A DNA stretch of 64,000 nucleotides, taken from NCBI GenBank assembly GCA_016872775.1, contig VGZA01000011.1:50069-114068 (forward strand). Direction: 5' to 3'. Every line of letters starts with the position of its first letter. The first letter of the stretch is position 1. Source of the stretch: Planctomycetota bacterium (GTDB lineage Bacteria; Planctomycetota; Planctomycetia; Pirellulales; Pirellulaceae). Shown here one piece after another: positions 13,861-19,538 of the stretch. A program made the translations under genes and the position numbers. The notes under the pieces are model-generated. The model was not told where the DNA came from. It ran no database searches and saw nothing but the letters and a program-made list of their open reading frames with translations.

Positions 13861-14244
13861 CATAACTGCCTGCCGGAGCACTACGACGACGGCGGTTTTT
13901 CAGGCGGGAGCATGGAGCGTCCCGCGCTCAGTCGGCTGCTGGCGGACATCGAAGCCAGGAAAATTGACTGCGTGGTCGTCTGCAAAGTAGACCGACTCAG
14001 CCGGTCGTTGCTGGACTTCGCCCGGATCATGGAGATCTTCGAACAGCGGGAAATCTCGTTCGTGTCGGTCACGCAGCAATTCAACACCGCCACATCGATG
14101 GGCCGCCTGGTGCTCAACGTGCTGCTCTCGTTCGCCCAGTTCGAACGGGAAATTATCGGCGAACGCATCCGCGACAAAATCGCGGCCCAGCGGCGTCCAA
14201 CAACATCTGATTCAAGAATCCGCCCGTCCCGCTGCTCGGCTTGA
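13861..14244 (+). pseudogene. Large serine recombinase, internal fragment
   Basis: The frame carries the middle of the resolvase catalytic domain of a large serine recombinase: [20 protein letters not shown], then [52 protein letters not shown] and [12 protein letters not shown]. The N-terminal part with the nucleophilic serine is absent, and the recombinase and zinc-ribbon domains that should follow residue IAA are absent. Similarity starts near [10 protein letters not shown] at 13861 and stops near 14190. The rest of the frame to the stop is unrelated and runs into an attC-like half site. An ATG at 13912 exists but is internal to the domain. The fragment cannot be active and is a remnant of an integrated element. 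Confidence 0.85.
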
Positions 14245-14258
14245 CCGCCTTGTTCGGC
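14220..14258 (-). other. attC-like site A, truncated half site
   Basis: Reading on the minus strand from 14258, the site starts GCCGAACAAGGCGGT, then a single C, AAGCCG, a single A, then GCAGCGGG. The C/AAGCCG/A arrangement is the same as in the well-known aadA-type attC arm. The complementary 3' arm expected further downstream is missing: after about 14220 the sequence is unrelated and leads into the recombinase fragment. The stop codon of the NHL gene (14264-14266) lies just before the outer box. Confidence 0.6.
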
Positions 14259-14263
14259 GTACC

Positions 14264-17200
14264 CTACCGGCTGCGCGGCTGGCCAGGCTGGTTCGTCGGC
14301 GGCTGCGGGCGCTTCCGTGCGCTGGGCGTGCCTTCGCGCGGCGGGCTTGTGACGGCAACGAGCCACGCGCCGTCTTTGAGTTTTACCGCGCCGGGGTCCG
14401 CGCCAGGAACTCGTGACGAACCCGAGACTGCTTCCCATGTTGCGCCGTCCCTGCTCGCGACCGGCCACGGCCCTGGGCCAGTGCCGAAGAATGCCAGCCG
14501 CTCGCCATCGCTCTGCATGTTGCCAAGCCATCGGTTCTGGCCGGGCATCGTCACGTCCGCGACGCGCTCGAAGTTCAGCCCGTCCTTGCTCACGGCGTGA
14601 TAGCCAACGCCGCCCCGCGGCGGCTCGCGGCGCTGCTGGTTCGCGCGCATTTGCTCCGGGGTGCCGTTGTCCGGCACGATGAGGTGGAACACGCCGCCGT
14701 GCAGCGCCACTGCGCAGTCAATCACGACGCGCCCTTCAAGGGCAAAGCGCACGCCCGGCTCGAACTCGTAGTTCACGCCGTCCTTCGCGACCGCCGAGTA
14801 AATCGCCGGCACGCTGCGCGCGAAGTCCGGGCTGCGGTTGGAGGTGAAGTAGAGCCGCACGCGTCCGTCCGACAGCGGCACCAGGGTCGGATCGAAGGGC
14901 CGCGCGAGTCCTGCCTCCAAGCCGGCGACCGTGATCGGCTCCGGTTTCGTCCACGTGCGTCCCTCGTCGCTGGAGAAACAGACGGCCACGCGGTCGAAGT
15001 TGCGGTCGTTGTCCGCCGGAAAGTGCTGGAAGGCCGCGATGATCCGCCCGTCCGCCAGCCGCGCGAGCGCCGGCACACCCGCGCGCGGGAAGGTCGCAAG
15101 CGGCCGCGCCTGGCCGGGATCGAGCCGCTGCACGAGCACATCGTTGTCCCACGGGCCTGGCTGGTTCGTGCGCGGTGAAGCGGGGCCGGCACCGGGTTGC
15201 GGAGCGGGATTCGGGTTGAACGGCGGCTCGCTCCGCGTGCGCGTCTTGCGCGGCGCCGCTGCGTTCGCCGGCGGGCTGAAGCGCAGGATGCGCGTGCTGA
15301 ACTTGAACTCACCCACCCACAGATAACCGCCGCCCCACGTCACTGAGCCGGGCATGAACAGCTTGTTGCGACCGAGGCCCGCGCTGCGGTCCCTCTCGTC
15401 CGCCGCGCCGAGGGATGCGTTCGCCGGCAGGCCCGCGAGCGCGTCCTCGACGCGATCCCACACCTGCACGCGATGGTTGCTGCGGTCAGCCACGAAGAAC
15501 TTGCCATCCGCCGCCAGCGCGTCGCCGGGCAGGTTGAACACTCCCGCGCCGCCGATGCGGACCGGGCGGTTGTCCGTGCCGAATTCCTTCACCGGCCACA
15601 CGCGGATTTCCTGACCCTCGAACGGCGCGGCGCAAAGATAGTTCCCGTCGCTGTTGAGCCGGCCAGGGTTCGATACTTCGAGCGTCAGCTTCGGATCGCT
15701 GTCCGCACCGGGGATGCCATCCCAGACGTAGATGCGGTTCGCCTGTCGATCCGCGAGATAGAAGTGCCGGGCGTCCATCGCCACGCCGGTCAGTTCACGC
15801 AAATCGACGCTGCCGATACGCCCGCGCAGCGTCAGGTCGGGCAACTCGCCGTCCAGCGGCAGTTTCCGCCAGATGCAGACCGTGTCGCGGCCGGCGAGCG
15901 CGAGGGTCGTGCCGCTCGCGGCGTTGTCCCATGGGCCATCGGGCAGATGATAGACGAAGTCCGGGCGCGCGGCGCTTTCGTCGGGCAGGCTGCGCCAGAT
16001 GAAGAGCTTCCGGTCGAAGTCCGACGAGACGAAGAGGCTCTTGCCATCCGTGGCCACCGCCGGGTTCTGGATAAAGTGGTTTTCCGCCCAAGTGTCCTGG
16101 TCGGTGCGGTCACTGCCGATGGCGAAGTCCGGCGGTTGGTAGTCGCGCGTCGGCAAAGCACTCCAGCCGAGAATGTGGCCGCCGTTGTAGGTGCAGACGT
16201 AGAGGCCGCTGTTCGCCACGACCGCGTCCGGGCCGTCGCCGTTGCGATACGTCGTCGGGCGCAGCACCACGTCGGCGTCGGTGTTCGCGTCGCGCGGAGC
16301 CTTGTTCCAGAGATAAACCGACTGGATGCCGGCGGCGACGAGCTGGCCATCCGCCGTGAGGGACCCCTTGAGCCATTCGCCCCAGCGCCAGTCCGGCGGT
16401 TGCGCTGCGGAAGTGGGGAAGGAATTCCAAACCATCGTCGCGGGCCGGGAGCGTTCGCCGAAGTTGTGGTCGCTCAAGGCGAAGAAAGTCTTGCCGTCGC
16501 TGGTGATGTTGCGCGGCGTGCCGGCGCCTTCGGGGCGCAGGATGAAGTCCGGCGGCTGCTGGTCGCGCGTCGGGAAGGAATTCCACACCAGCACCGCCGC
16601 GCCGCGGGTCGCAACAACCGCGAGTTTGGTGCCGTCCGTCCAGACGCCCCACGGCCAGCCGAGGCGCGTGCCGCCAAACCGTCGGCTGCTACCGGGGCGG
16701 TTGGCTCCGCCGCCGTCGGAGAGCCCACTGAGTTCAATCACCAGGTCCGCCGGTTGAGCGTTCCTTGTCGGAAAGGAATTCCAAACCAGCACACGTTCGT
16801 TTTCTGTGTCCGCCACGGCGATGCGCCGGCCATCGGGTGTGATGGCGACGTTGCCGGGCCAGTTCAACTGCTGTCGGCCCGCGCCGGAGTTGTTCTGCGT
16901 GAAGTCGGGTTGGCCGAGCACGAGATCGGGCGGCGTATTCTTTGCGGGCGCGGACTTCCAGATGAGCACACGGTTGTTCCAACGGTCGGCAACGAGCAGC
17001 GCCTTGCCGTCGGTGGCAAGGCCGGAGGGATGGTTCAGCAGCAGCGGGCCGCCGGAGTTGTTAAATCCCTTCGAGCCCAGCACGAGGTCGGCATCCTGCC
17101 CGGTGACGAACACGCCGGGCTTGGCCTCCGGCGCGGCGGCATACTTCGACGCGATGCGCTCGACGCGAATCGCGTCGCGCCGCTCGGTGGCGCGCGGTTC

Positions 17201-17290
17201 CTGGCCCGGCAGAGCGGGTGCGACTACGGCCAGAACGAGGGCGAACCCACACACGCTGAAGATGAACCTGCTCATAAACCTCCCAAACAT
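14264..17290 (-). CDS. Large secreted NHL-repeat protein with C-terminal sialidase-like (BNR) domain, cassette-borne
   Basis: A 1008-residue protein. A signal peptide (FIFSVCGFALVLAVVAPALPG) is followed by NHL-type propeller repeats from about 45 to 620, for example HPSGLATDGKALLVADRWNN and WPGNVAITPDGRRIAVADTEN, with repeated VLVWNSFPTR units. A Pro/Arg-rich linker is near 640-680. The C-terminal 300 residues contain BNR/sialidase-like elements (FSSDEGRTWTKPEPI, PTLVPLSDGRVRLYFTSN). It is probably an exported ligand- or glycan-binding protein; no catalytic triad was identified. The ATG at 17290 has GGAG five bases upstream. The frame continues upstream, but that stretch is the translated attC-like site B, not protein. 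It fills a 3-kb cassette, which is unusually large for an integron-type cassette. Confidence 0.8.
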   Translation of the reverse strand: MFGRFMSRFIFSVCGFALVLAVVAPALPGQEPRATERRDAIRVERIASKYAAAPEAKPGVFVTGQDADLVLGSKGFNNSGGPLLLNHPSGLATDGKALLVADRWNNRVLIWKSAPAKNTPPDLVLGQPDFTQNNSGAGRQQLNWPGNVAITPDGRRIAVADTENERVLVWNSFPTRNAQPADLVIELSGLSDGGGANRPGSSRRFGGTRLGWPWGVWTDGTKLAVVATRGAAVLVWNSFPTRDQQPPDFILRPEGAGTPRNITSDGKTFFALSDHNFGERSRPATMVWNSFPTSAAQPPDWRWGEWLKGSLTADGQLVAAGIQSVYLWNKAPRDANTDADVVLRPTTYRNGDGPDAVVANSGLYVCTYNGGHILGWSALPTRDYQPPDFAIGSDRTDQDTWAENHFIQNPAVATDGKSLFVSSDFDRKLFIWRSLPDESAARPDFVYHLPDGPWDNAASGTTLALAGRDTVCIWRKLPLDGELPDLTLRGRIGSVDLRELTGVAMDARHFYLADRQANRIYVWDGIPGADSDPKLTLEVSNPGRLNSDGNYLCAAPFEGQEIRVWPVKEFGTDNRPVRIGGAGVFNLPGDALAADGKFFVADRSNHRVQVWDRVEDALAGLPANASLGAADERDRSAGLGRNKLFMPGSVTWGGGYLWVGEFKFSTRILRFSPPANAAAPRKTRTRSEPPFNPNPAPQPGAGPASPRTNQPGPWDNDVLVQRLDPGQARPLATFPRAGVPALARLADGRIIAAFQHFPADNDRNFDRVAVCFSSDEGRTWTKPEPITVAGLEAGLARPFDPTLVPLSDGRVRLYFTSNRSPDFARSVPAIYSAVAKDGVNYEFEPGVRFALEGRVVIDCAVALHGGVFHLIVPDNGTPEQMRANQQRREPPRGGVGYHAVSKDGLNFERVADVTMPGQNRWLGNMQSDGERLAFFGTGPGPWPVASRDGATWEAVSGSSRVPGADPGAVKLKDGAWLVAVTSPPREGTPSARKRPQPPTNQPGQPRSR

Positions 17291-17302
17291 CGTAACTCCA
17301 CT

Positions 17303-17402
17303 GCCGAACGCCAAGGCTAAGCTGCCGGGGCCGGCCTGCATGGACGTTGAAGCTCGGAAAACCCGGATGGCGGCCCCGGTCAGCTTCAGCCGTTGGTTAG
17401 GC
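17303..17402 (-). other. attC-like site B, complete
   Basis: On the minus strand the 100-bp site begins GCCTAAC, a match to the RYYYAAC box, and ends GTTCGGC, one base off GTTRRRY. Its 5' arm GGCT-G-AAGCTG-A-CCGGGGCCG pairs with 3' arm bases whose reverse complement is GGCT-AAGCTG-CCGGGGCCG. Exactly one G and one A are therefore left unpaired, six paired bases apart. The TAA stop of the TPR gene is inside the first box (GCC TAA C). The NHL gene starts 13 bp after the site. Confidence 0.72.
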
Positions 17403-18005
17403 CCCCGAATCGCCCCAACATTCCTTGGCCGTGCGCAACTCGTTGGCCTTTCCTCGATCCCGCTCCGCGCCCTCAGTGTCGCCCAAGGCCTCCATGACAT
17501 TGGCGCGCATCTCATAGAGCACGGGGTTTGCCGGTTCCAGCCGAATGGCTTCGGTGAACTCCGCCAAGGCTTGCTGCAGTTGTAACGCCGACTTTGCGGG
17601 GTCCCACGTCGCCTCGATCGATTTCATCACACCTACCGCAACCCGGGCATTGGCATGTTCCGGGTTGAGCTGAATCGCCCGCCGCAAATCCGCGAGCGCT
17701 TGGAACCACCACGGAGACCCATTGTTGCGGTAGGCGATCCCCCGGTGATAATAGGCGTCCGCATACTGAGCATTGCAGCGAATGGCTTCGTCAAAAGCCC
17801 GGACGGCGCCCTCCCAATCGCTCTCAAGTTTCGCGAGCCCCAGTTTGCAATGAGCCACGGCGTTGGACGGATCGAGTTCCACGGCGGTCGAATACTCCGC
17901 AACCGCTTTGTCCATGTCGCCCAACTCCATGTGCCAGTCCCCCCGCTTCAGATAGTCCGCCGAGGTGGTGGGAAGGCCGAGCAGACGTTTGATGAGGCCA
18001 ATCAT
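17397..18005 (-). CDS. TPR-repeat protein, cassette-borne
   Basis: A 202-residue protein built almost entirely of tetratricopeptide repeats, a scaffold for protein-protein contacts. After a short hydrophobic N-terminus (MIGLIKRLLGLPTTSADY), repeat units are visible: RGDWHMELGDMDKAVAEYSTAVELDPSN, AVAHCKLGLAKLESDWEGAVRAFDEAI, ADAYYHRGIAYRNNG...ALADLRRAIQLNPEH, then QALAEFTEAIRLEPANPVLYEMRANV. The partner is unknown. The ATG at 18005 has AAGGA upstream; extending further would translate attC-like site C. The TAA stop lies inside the GCCTAAC box of site B. Gene plus site is about 700 bp, the normal size for a gene cassette. Confidence 0.85.
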   Translation of the reverse strand: MIGLIKRLLGLPTTSADYLKRGDWHMELGDMDKAVAEYSTAVELDPSNAVAHCKLGLAKLESDWEGAVRAFDEAIRCNAQYADAYYHRGIAYRNNGSPWWFQALADLRRAIQLNPEHANARVAVGVMKSIEATWDPAKSALQLQQALAEFTEAIRLEPANPVLYEMRANVMEALGDTEGAERDRGKANELRTAKECWGDSGA

Positions 18006-18036
18006 TTCGATCTGTCCTTGTGGCGCCACCACTCGG

Positions 18037-18127
18037 GCCGAACGACTGCGGTCACCGGGCGGGCGCAAGTGACCTTACCATTGGAAAACGCCCGGTTCGC
18101 CCGCTCCGGTGCACCGCCTTGTTCGGC
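18037..18127 (-). other. attC-like site C, complete
   Basis: A 91-bp site with outer boxes GCCGAAC (18121-18127 on the minus strand) and GTTCGGC (18037-18043). On the minus strand the 5' arm CGGT-G-CACCGG-A-GCGGGCG pairs with an opposite arm whose reverse complement is CGGT-CACCGG-GCGGGCG. Again exactly a G and an A are unpaired, six bases apart, as in site B, although the primary sequences differ. That covariation is what makes the attC interpretation attractive. The last base of the upstream gene's TAG stop is the first base of the site. Confidence 0.72.
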
Positions 18128-18636
18128 TACTTGCGTTGCCGTTTAGGGCCGCGCGGAACTGTGTTTGATTTGTGAATTGTGATTTCTGCGCGATAGAGGA
18201 ATCCATCGTGTGCAACGACCGGCGTTTCAATTCCGAGTTCTTTGGGAGGCTCCACAACTCCGTCGAAGGATCCCCATTCGTGAACATAGTAATCGAACGG
18301 CTTTCCGGATTCGGGTTTATCGATTCCATCGGCAGCGCGGCGAAATGTGAAGTAGACTGGGGTCGCGAGTTGCTCACCGTTCACAGTCTCAATCTTGAGG
18401 AGCGTTTCACGGGAATCTGCCTTCCTCCGCGTTTCCTCGCCGTCAACCGTCATACCTGTCACGCGAATCACACTTCCGAGCGGTTGACCCAAATGACCGA
18501 CAACGGCTTTGGGTCGAAATGCGGCTACTGAAATCGTTTCATTCTGTTTTGTTGAGCTGGGTTCCTGTGCTCGCAAAAGGGAATAAGTAACGAACAGCAA
18601 CGCGGCTACCAACAGAAAACGGTTTCGAGCGAGCAT
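18127..18636 (-). CDS. Secreted hypothetical protein, cassette-borne
   Basis: A 169-residue protein with a clear signal peptide (FLLVAALLFVTYSLLRAQ, cleavage near residue 23). The mature part is predicted beta-rich: HLGQPLGSVIRVTGMTVDGEE, LLKIETVNGEQLATPVYFTFRRA, FDYYVHEWGSFDGVV, HDGFLYRAEITIHKS. I do not recognise a family; the pattern hints at an OB-like or small beta-barrel fold. The ATG at 18636 has GGAG eight bases upstream. The TAG stop merges into attC-like site C. A consensus-like promoter lies about 100 bp upstream (18739-18767), so this could be the promoter-proximal cassette driving the array. Confidence 0.72.
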   Translation of the reverse strand: MLARNRFLLVAALLFVTYSLLRAQEPSSTKQNETISVAAFRPKAVVGHLGQPLGSVIRVTGMTVDGEETRRKADSRETLLKIETVNGEQLATPVYFTFRRAADGIDKPESGKPFDYYVHEWGSFDGVVEPPKELGIETPVVAHDGFLYRAEITIHKSNTVPRGPKRQRK

Positions 18637-18738
18637 CGTTGTGTCTCCATTTTATGTAATTCTGCCGCCGGGTCAGCGCCCTCGTAATTAGTTGCGATGG
18701 CCACTCCGGCGGGATAAGACGCAGTCGAAACGCCTGTG

Positions 18739-18767
18739 AATTTAGGGCCGAAGTGCTGACAAGTCAA
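18739..18767 (-). promoter_or_regulatory. Predicted sigma70-like promoter for cassette array
   Basis: On the minus strand TTGACT (18762-18767), a 17-bp spacer and TAAATT (18739-18744) make a near-consensus promoter. Transcription would start near 18732 and give a leader of about 95 nt before the ATG at 18636. In an integron this is where a cassette promoter would be expected. Confidence 0.5.
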
Positions 18768-18899
18768 ACATTTGCGGCCATTCGCCCCAGACGACCCCGC
18801 GGCATTATTGGAGCGGCATAATCCGCAGACCGGCGAGCGTGTGAGCTCCCTCAGGCAGGTTGGTTGTTTTATGTCGACGTTTTCCGGCGGCACAACCCG

Positions 18900-19538
18900 C
18901 ACCCGCCAACCCCCTTCGTTGGCAATGAAAGTCCTTCCATCGGGATAGAACCGACCGGTCAATTCATGGGTCGGCAGATAGGTATATGTCGTGACATATC
19001 CGCGCGGATCTATGCGTGTTGCTTGATCCCCAACCGCATCAAAAGTAGACGACGTCATTCGCCCCCGGGCATCCATGGTCGCGATTCGGTGGTTGTCGGC
19101 GTCGTGACTGTAAGTGACTCGATTGCCGCGCGCGTCGACCAGCGCCGAAATGCGGCCGATGGCGTCAAGCACGTTTGTGGTGACGTTACCCAACGCGTCC
19201 AGCGTAGATGTGGTTGTGTTACCACGCGCATCGGTCACGGCAATCTGCCTGCCCAAAGCATCCCACACAAAAGTTGTTCGATAGCCTCGCGTATTCACGA
19301 TGGCCGTAACTTCGCCAGCCAAATTGAAAGTTGTCGAGGCGCGGTTCCCCGCCGGATCGATCACTCCGATTTTCTGTCCGACTTGATCAAGAACATTGGT
19401 AACGCGGTAGCCTAATGCACTAATCGATTCGGTCTGCCGCCCCGCCGCGTCAAAAATGATGGATGTCGAGAATCCGAGCGCGTTTGTTATGCGAATCGCG
19501 CGTCCGAGCGCATCCAAAGTACTTGGTAGAGAAACCAC
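18900..19538 (-). pseudogene. RHS/YD-repeat protein remnant
   Basis: About 210 residues of canonical YD repeats: TLDALGRAIRITNALGF, IFDAAGRQTESISALGYRVTNVLDQVGQ, VWDALGRQIAVTDARGNTTTSTLDALGN, ending TTYTYLPTHELTGRFYPDGRTF. Intact RHS or wall-associated proteins are over 1000 residues with a conserved core and a variable toxin tip. Here there is no start codon with a ribosome site, no core and no tip. After about residue 210 the frame becomes unrelated Cys/Arg-rich sequence. An unrelated frame overlaps its 5' side at 19538-19674. I read it as a decayed internal piece of an RHS gene, possibly brought in with the neighbouring cassettes or transposases. Confidence 0.7.

Follow-up and report, generated by a model that had tools for sequence, protein, structure and literature searches.

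The 64,000-nucleotide stretch of a planctomycete genome analysed here (family Pirellulaceae, contig VGZA01000011.1, positions 50,069 to 114,068; hereafter the window, with coordinates counted from its first letter) probably holds the remnant of a planctomycete integron, comprising a likely attI with a predicted promoter, three cassettes on the same strand and two complete attC sites plus a likely half attC, with no adjacent integrase, though the genome encodes one on another contig. Read along the minus strand, the order is RHS-repeat DNA, an attI copy without GTT, cassette gene 1, attC B, cassette gene 2, attC A, cassette gene 3, half attC C and a resolvase fragment. An earlier annotation made from the letters of the window, hereafter the sequence-only reading, had described three gene cassettes with attC-like sites and no integrase. 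Its observation that the three genes point the same way and end in or beside a site is borne out: all are on the minus strand, and their stop codons reach 1 nt into, 6 nt into, or lie 5 nt before a site.

Cassette organisation and the attC identity of the two complete sites, attC A (17303..17402, minus strand, GCCTAAC...GTTCGGC) and attC B (18037..18127, minus strand, GCCGAAC...GTTCGGC), are supported by fold, scanner and covariance models. The coordinates, the minus-strand fold and the unpaired G and A six pairs apart, all as proposed in the sequence-only reading, were verified. The sites lie 635 nt apart and share a layout of outer 7-nt boxes, 8-nt and 9-nt sides, an unpaired G, six pairs, an unpaired A and a terminal stem. 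R and L stems with an unpaired spacer and a variable terminal loop are present in both (in the fold and in model R2, described below, with spacings of 8 and 9 nt in the scanner), and AAC and GTT core triplets end the palindrome. When the minus strand was folded as single-strand DNA, a check that the same reading had proposed, both sites folded better than dinucleotide shuffles (site A, z -2.6, 1 of 200 shuffles as good; site B, z -3.9, 0 of 200); the corresponding plus-strand values were z -3.6 and -5.1. A structure-only scanner that takes no account of what the unpaired bases are found only A and B in the 64 kb and nothing in 10 shuffles (640 kb); an earlier scanner, scored differently, picked out the same pair and gave 1 match in 8 shuffles.

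For an independent set of sequences, we turned to attC sites that accompany integrases of other species. A first covariance model, R1, was built from sites A and B together with two sites beside the genome's own integrase gene on contig C76, with the loop centres removed. It collected 56 sites from 80 public contigs encoding relatives of that integrase; within each locus these share a strand, and every one except a 25-bit site (locus L036) is on the side and strand expected for a divergent or same-direction integrase gene (intI). The L036 site has neither the side nor the strand that its intI calls for and is possibly false. The second model, R2, was built from those 56 sites only, none from this genome, and matches site B with 60.7 bits (E 4.9e-13) and site A with 54.6 bits (E 1.7e-11), the next best match in the window reaching 14.1; a covariance-model check, of the kind proposed earlier, came out in favour of both sites. 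R1 itself gave 64.7 and 57 bits for the two sites in a genome search and, with filters off, 27.2 bits for B and 13.7 for A, the latter pair being partial matches amid chance palindromes of similar score. One may ask whether the sites are simply chance hairpins, or hairpins resembling repetitive extragenic palindromes (REPs), next to genes. Palindromes occur often in GC-rich genomes, the fold of the half-site does not surpass that of shuffles and the earlier scanner did return its one match in shuffled sequence, but the absence of scanner matches in 640 kb of shuffles, the model scores and the gene orientation leave this explanation with next to no probability overall, and for sites A and B it is already refuted.

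Two departures from textbook attC sites deserve comment. Classical sites carry an extrahelical G and T on the bottom strand, in one arm and 6-8 nt apart (PMC2727003). In sites A and B the position and the T are as in classical sites, and the other base is a C on the bottom strand (a G on the top). A blind scan of 218 sites of the family (loci L151-L167) gave G-A as the unpaired top-strand pair in 169 and C-A in 46, and at loci with a named intI each pair occurred 20 times (n = 50). The top-strand G in place of the classical C as first unpaired base could possibly reflect a clade difference in integrase contacts. The second departure is the R' box, GTTCGGC in both A and B, which does not follow the attC consensus GTTRRRY, itself not strict. 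In the same 218 sites, 106 of them from one genome (G011), the fourth base of GTTN is C in 108, A in 107, G in 2 and T in 1; we do not take GTTRRRY as defining, since 108 of 218 sites have GTTC. This count rules out GTTCGGC as a marker of a separate attC class, and the earlier suggestion of a planctomycete-specific outer box gives way to ordinary variation, odd as the box looks at first sight. An attC model for Planctomycetes has already been published (PMC8352920).

The likely half attC C (14220..14258, minus strand) consists of an R'' box and left arm only. Read from 14258 down to 14220, it runs GCCGAACAAGGCGGT-C-AAGCCG-A and then breaks off at the loop, 5 nt after the stop codon of gene 3. 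We count it as an attC because its first 15 bases and its spacing are the same as in attC B; the third half-site of the sequence-only reading stands on this likeness, but not on its own fold or model score, which are given below.

Are such sites oriented with respect to genes elsewhere? Scattering without orientation had been named as an outcome that would speak against the cassette interpretation, and this is not what we find. Among 12 sites in the genome (including the half-site and a 25-bit site on contig C102), an open reading frame (ORF; at least 75 aa) on the same strand ends no more than 40 nt before R'' or just inside that box in 9; two more have such an end within 160 nt, and one is at a contig edge. 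Opposite-strand ORF ends occur within 40 nt of 0 of 12 sites and within 160 nt of 1 of 12, and random positions have an ORF end within 40 nt in 479 of 4000 cases and within 160 nt in 1363 of 4000. We also considered whether a repeat scattered through the genome could account for the window sites, and rejected this given their orientation with genes and a BLAST of attC A against its own genome that returned only itself, with the next matches at E 0.27 or more. Across relatives, the scanner found 218 sites in 16 of 17 loci, always on one strand per locus, and a single shuffle of those 267,898 bases yielded none. At E<=0.01, R1 matches 38 of 60 genomes: this one, 30 of 36 others of the family and 7 of 23 from other families of the order. 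An intI at E<=1e-60 is present in 16 of the 60, this one among them; one genome (G025) has 56 R1 matches and no intI at that threshold.

The 5' edge of the array, 18653..18901 on the minus strand, is likely an attI, an identification drawn from comparison with related loci. It comprises three upstream modules (18895, 18821 and 18717) and a core-proximal element (18653-18731); the crossover GTT found at the end of most other copies is missing from this one (ACATAAAATGG). The window and another contig of the same genome (C3:11333-11508) have 176 bp in common at 94% identity, and in both places the shared stretch stops right before the first cassette. BLAST finds this stretch in 9 of 241 family genomes, own included; a sequence model of the last 87 positions of the element (R3, from 13 copies in other genomes) scores 77.6 bits in the window (E 9.3e-23) and 85.7 bits on C3, and matches 16 of 240 family genomes at E<=0.001, counting this one, with E below 1e-10 in 10 of the 16.

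The attI reading is supported by four properties of these copies: adjacency to intI, a sharp 3' limit, a self-match at the junction, and attC sites on the element's strand. At five relative loci, intI or a piece of it lies upstream of the element and divergent from it, uninterrupted at G024:C31 and G106:C56 (the latter with a weak element match of 23 bits), broken at G111:C349 and C237, and a relic at G024:C58. In 225 pairs, drawn from 29 copies, that align through the element, similarity ends within 8 nt of the 3' junction in 201 and not in 24, and the 5' limits of similarity range from -377 to -55; between the window and the G096 copy it spans -248 to the junction. The junction itself was compared in 15 of 39 copies, chosen because the first site downstream is a confident attC, leaving out L194-L196 (weak attC, 17-26 bits) and L224-10808 (next attC weak and far). 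GTT stands at the junction in 11 of the 15, and the four bases after it complement the R'' of the copy's own cassette at 41 of 44 positions (exactly in 8 of 11 copies); shuffled pairings averaged 21.8 and reached 41 in 0 of 20,000. The L225-4361 and L228 junctions look one T short. In all the loci examined that have both element and attC matches, the latter are on the element's strand. We considered the 176-bp repeat as part of an RHS gene or an insertion sequence and rejected both, as it adjoins RHS here, transposase-like DNA on C3 and cassettes elsewhere. On C3, a single SMI1/KNR4-type cassette lies behind a complete attI copy with an exact junction match (L106 5001-5850), and DNA that by eye resembles a transposase occupies the upstream side, where intI would be.

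Copies of the element also carry a conserved sigma-70-like sequence that we predict to be the cassette promoter. The pattern TTGACN-17-TANNTT scores at least 9 of 12 upstream of the junction in 29 of 39 copies, compared with 49 of 2000 control stretches, and in 18 of 39 the distance between the best -35 box and the 3' arm is exactly 97 nt; these counts come from copies related by descent and hence are not independent. In the window the predicted promoter is TTGACT-17-TAAATT at 18739..18767 (minus strand, 18767 to 18739; scan score 9 of 12), one of 2 sites in 5.2 kb where 0.6 are expected. Beyond the promoter on the upstream side, GCGTGTTATGCCGCCG-like modules repeat with spacings of 112-113, 74 and 104-105 nt, and 86 is also found in L163; the window keeps the three listed above. 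L163 (4460-4970) has such modules in tandem (GCGTNTTATGCCGCCG..., frequently paired with CATAAC) in the interval from a divergent intI to attI, with copies in L193, L187 and L191, and they might be extra integrase-binding sites. The palindrome of the last module is conserved in sequence; a selected hairpin at this position is unsupported, RNAalifold yielding 2 pairs only, with 83.5% paired versus 83.3% in shuffles.

Does the genome encode an integrase elsewhere? The statement that integrase is absent holds for the window, where tblastn at E<=1e-5 found no intI, and not for the genome. There, a genome-wide search of the kind suggested earlier for intI and other bulged stems located both. The attC sites are spread over seven contigs, and the intI, full-length and free of stops, lies at C76:1547-2485 and matches TIGR02249 with 464.6 bits (cut-off 265). 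Its sequence contains what we take, by eye, to be the IntI-specific extra region ALARKYPNANREWCWQ and the R..HxxR..Y residues of tyrosine recombinases. Its closest named relative, from a Pirellula sp. metagenome-assembled genome (MAG), is 71% identical, and others reach 81-83%. On C76 (L008 260-2623) the intI and two cassettes run in the same direction, with attC at 792-848 and 260-350, and the contig ends in a tRNA-like stretch (by eye). The 5' end of each C76 cassette appears by eye to complement its own attC R'' (TTCGGA/TCCGAAC and TTCGTC/GACGAAC). In typical integrons intI diverges from the cassettes; an arrangement with both read the same way has been described in Treponema (PMC3607928). 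Both integrase orientations occur among the relatives. C-terminal integrase relics on C83 (L107 13252-13374, 83% over 41 residues) and C40 (L006 1507-1650, 56% over 48), both without the rest of the gene, are likely traces of earlier integrons in this genome.

Strong attC matches lie on C76 (2), C11, the window's contig (2), C102 (2), C3, C83, C4 and C30; weaker matches at C30:46055 and C17:89450 (E about 0.2-3) were excluded. The genome search with R2 returned 8 matches and missed C76, C3 and C102:3001. Its first pass evidently loses true sites, as the C3 site scores 45.4 bits when its locus is searched directly. On C102 (L105, 3001-4368), a gene that by eye looks serpin-like lies between two attC-like sites and is possibly a protease-inhibitor cassette in a planctomycete.

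With two attC sites and no intI in the window, the locus fits the definition of a cluster of attC sites lacking integrase (CALIN), that is, at least 2 attC and no intI (PMC9024848). It is not a complete integron, which has intI at the locus, that of this genome being on C76; a likely attI before the first cassette is recognised by homology, in a copy without GTT. The sequence-only reading proposed a CALIN or a planctomycete-specific relative of one. The attC count and the missing neighbouring intI agree with this, while the intI elsewhere in the genome, the ordinary nature of GTTCGGC and the likely attI with predicted promoter at the 5' end do not, and it is the last of these that leads us to regard the locus as an integron without its integrase gene, not a mere CALIN. 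In an ordinary CALIN, a trans-acting integrase would have inserted the cassettes at a place other than attI, and the 5' element would be no more than a leader repeat or promoter. CALINs occur widely, with cassettes that can move in trans (PMC9668308), and in one relative (G007) the element occupies 24 places without any intI above the family cut-off; an attI nonetheless predicts the self-match at the junction, the neighbouring intI seen in five loci and the abrupt 3' end of similarity, and we regard an ordinary CALIN as improbable. Even less probable is that a local intI is missing merely through an assembly or binning error: the genome is a 141-contig draft with several attC sites at contig ends, but this locus is internal to a 114-kb contig with RHS DNA directly beside attI, and the second copy on C3 likewise has other DNA upstream. 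The locus reads as a degraded integron rather than a bare CALIN, its attI lacking the crossover GTT and its last attC cut, with two inner attC remaining.

Several observations weigh against this interpretation. The window copy of attI is one of four, among the 15 copies compared, that are without GTT at the junction, so that the self-match could be read on other copies and not on its own; covariation in the attI hairpin is no better than in shuffles. The window holds no relic of intI by tblastn, the intact intI of the genome adjoins a different-looking attI, and seven of the ten genomes with the clearest attI are without intI over the cut-off. The first unpaired base in A and B is a bottom-strand C, not the classical G. 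Half-site C by itself is not significant (R2, 12.0 bits, E 0.94; fold no better than shuffles, z 0.53). The training sites of R2 were chosen via R1, itself built partly from A and B, so that R2 is independent in its sequences and not in its search template. Finally, cassette 3 exceeds 3 kb, and only 4 of 202 attC spacings in the family are 3 kb or longer (median 570).

The cassette contents differ in how widely they are shared. Gene 1 (18127..18636, minus strand, 169 aa, no Pfam family), whose TAG stop reaches one base into attC B, is matched at E<=1e-5 in 4 of the 239 other genomes of the family, once by a broken copy. In one relative (G069) the last 118 codons of gene 1 and the attC form a single block, 85% identical over 438 nt, whose similarity ends in the R' box, and this fits the expected 3' end of a cassette (the 5' end is not shown there). 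Gene 2 (17397..18005, minus strand, 202 aa), a TPR protein with its TAA stop inside the R'' box of attC A, matches one other protein at E<=1e-20, 34% identical. Gene 3 (14264..17275, minus strand, 1003 aa, with an alternative ATG possible at 17290) encodes an NHL-repeat/BNR-like protein. Among 7997 candidates sharing most words with it that were scored, the best three relatives are 88-89% identical over residues 20-520, one being a MAG protein labelled Armatimonadetes, followed by proteins of Verrucomicrobia-type MAGs at 80-82%. With up to 3 candidates scored per genome, the 239 other genomes of the family gave no match at E<=1e-100, and a second copy in the same genome (C115:822-3716) is 60-62% identical. 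This distribution suggests lateral gain of gene 3, possibly as a cassette; as the length of cassette 3 is rare among family spacings, the gene may have entered another way.

A plus-strand fragment of a serine recombinase (13912..14244; resolvase N-terminal domain, PF00239, 1.2e-26, profile positions 48-140 of 145), itself outside the integron, abuts the cut attC C, and an RHS-repeat reading frame (18902..19538, minus strand; PF05593, 4.1e-24) occupies the side where relatives have a divergent intI. Searches of the window against Rfam returned nothing at gathering scores, and a tRNA scan found none.

We propose the following model for the present state of the locus. The local integrase was probably lost by deletion, with RHS-repeat DNA now abutting attI and the resolvase fragment abutting the cut attC. 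The predicted attI promoter would transcribe the cassettes. IntI encoded on C76, or an incoming one, acting in trans, would fold and cut the bottom strand (the plus strand of the window) of attC A and B at G^TT, allowing excision or exchange of the 734-bp TPR cassette (17309-18042) or insertion of new cassettes; excision of CALIN cassettes by an integrase in trans has been stated to be possible (PMC9668308). The outer ends would be frozen and offer no complete site, since GTT is missing from the attI copy and the last attC is broken off at the loop.

How does this locus relate to known systems? Like the CALINs defined by IntegronFinder (PMC9024848), it has at least 2 attC within a few kb, in one orientation, with no adjacent intI; unlike them, it keeps a likely attI with a predicted promoter at its 5' end, and an uninterrupted intI exists elsewhere in the genome. 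Chromosomal integrons of Planctomycetes are already known (PMC2426708, PMC9668308), and the locus resembles them in attC layout, intI family (TIGR02249) and one-strand array, differing in its missing intI, one cut outer attC and an attI without GTT. Delta-attI-type cassettes of class 1/2 integrons (PMC12901181) likewise place attI sequence in a cassette array away from the integrase, but are mostly short attI remnants replacing the attC downstream of a gene, whereas here a long attI with a predicted promoter lies upstream of cassettes that keep their own attC, and occurs at 24 places in one genome. The locus itself therefore belongs to a known kind.

In the Pc/attI1 platform of class 1 integrons, the promoter lies just upstream of the cassette insertion point; here, the predicted promoter and attI are parts of a single conserved unit that extends to the modules spaced as given above. 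It is this promoter-bearing attI, present in many copies, that looks new: in the open-access literature searched, we found no report of a conserved promoter-and-attI unit without integrase and with many copies per genome, the nearest parallel being the Delta-attI-type cassettes (PMC12901181).

The genome richest in the element, G007 (11 Mb, 790 contigs, 96% complete), carries its 24 places on 12 contigs (L223-L232 and L188-L190 in the stretches read) at 30 to 79 bits, a count that could drop if contig ends overlap. Five copies lie on one 6.8-kb contig, and copies are partly interleaved with attC sites; its best intI match, at 101 bits, is below the cut-off. Several cassettes in this genome seem to be without attC, with the next attI-like element directly after them. 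Among the ten genomes with the clearest element, three (G000, G024 and G106) have intI over the cut-off.

Integrase-less cassette clusters are usually filed as degraded CALINs, and this one shows a likely attI and a predicted promoter, while the uninterrupted integrase elsewhere in the same genome makes a test in trans direct. We tentatively suggest, as a possibility still short of being the probable one, that in this planctomycete family attI may act as a portable expression platform, a unit of promoter and attI multiplying without adjacent integrase, such that many cassette blocks would each have their own promoter and landing site and be served in trans by one integrase or by none, with the window as a decayed example. 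If this were true, it would break the rule of one attI per integron.

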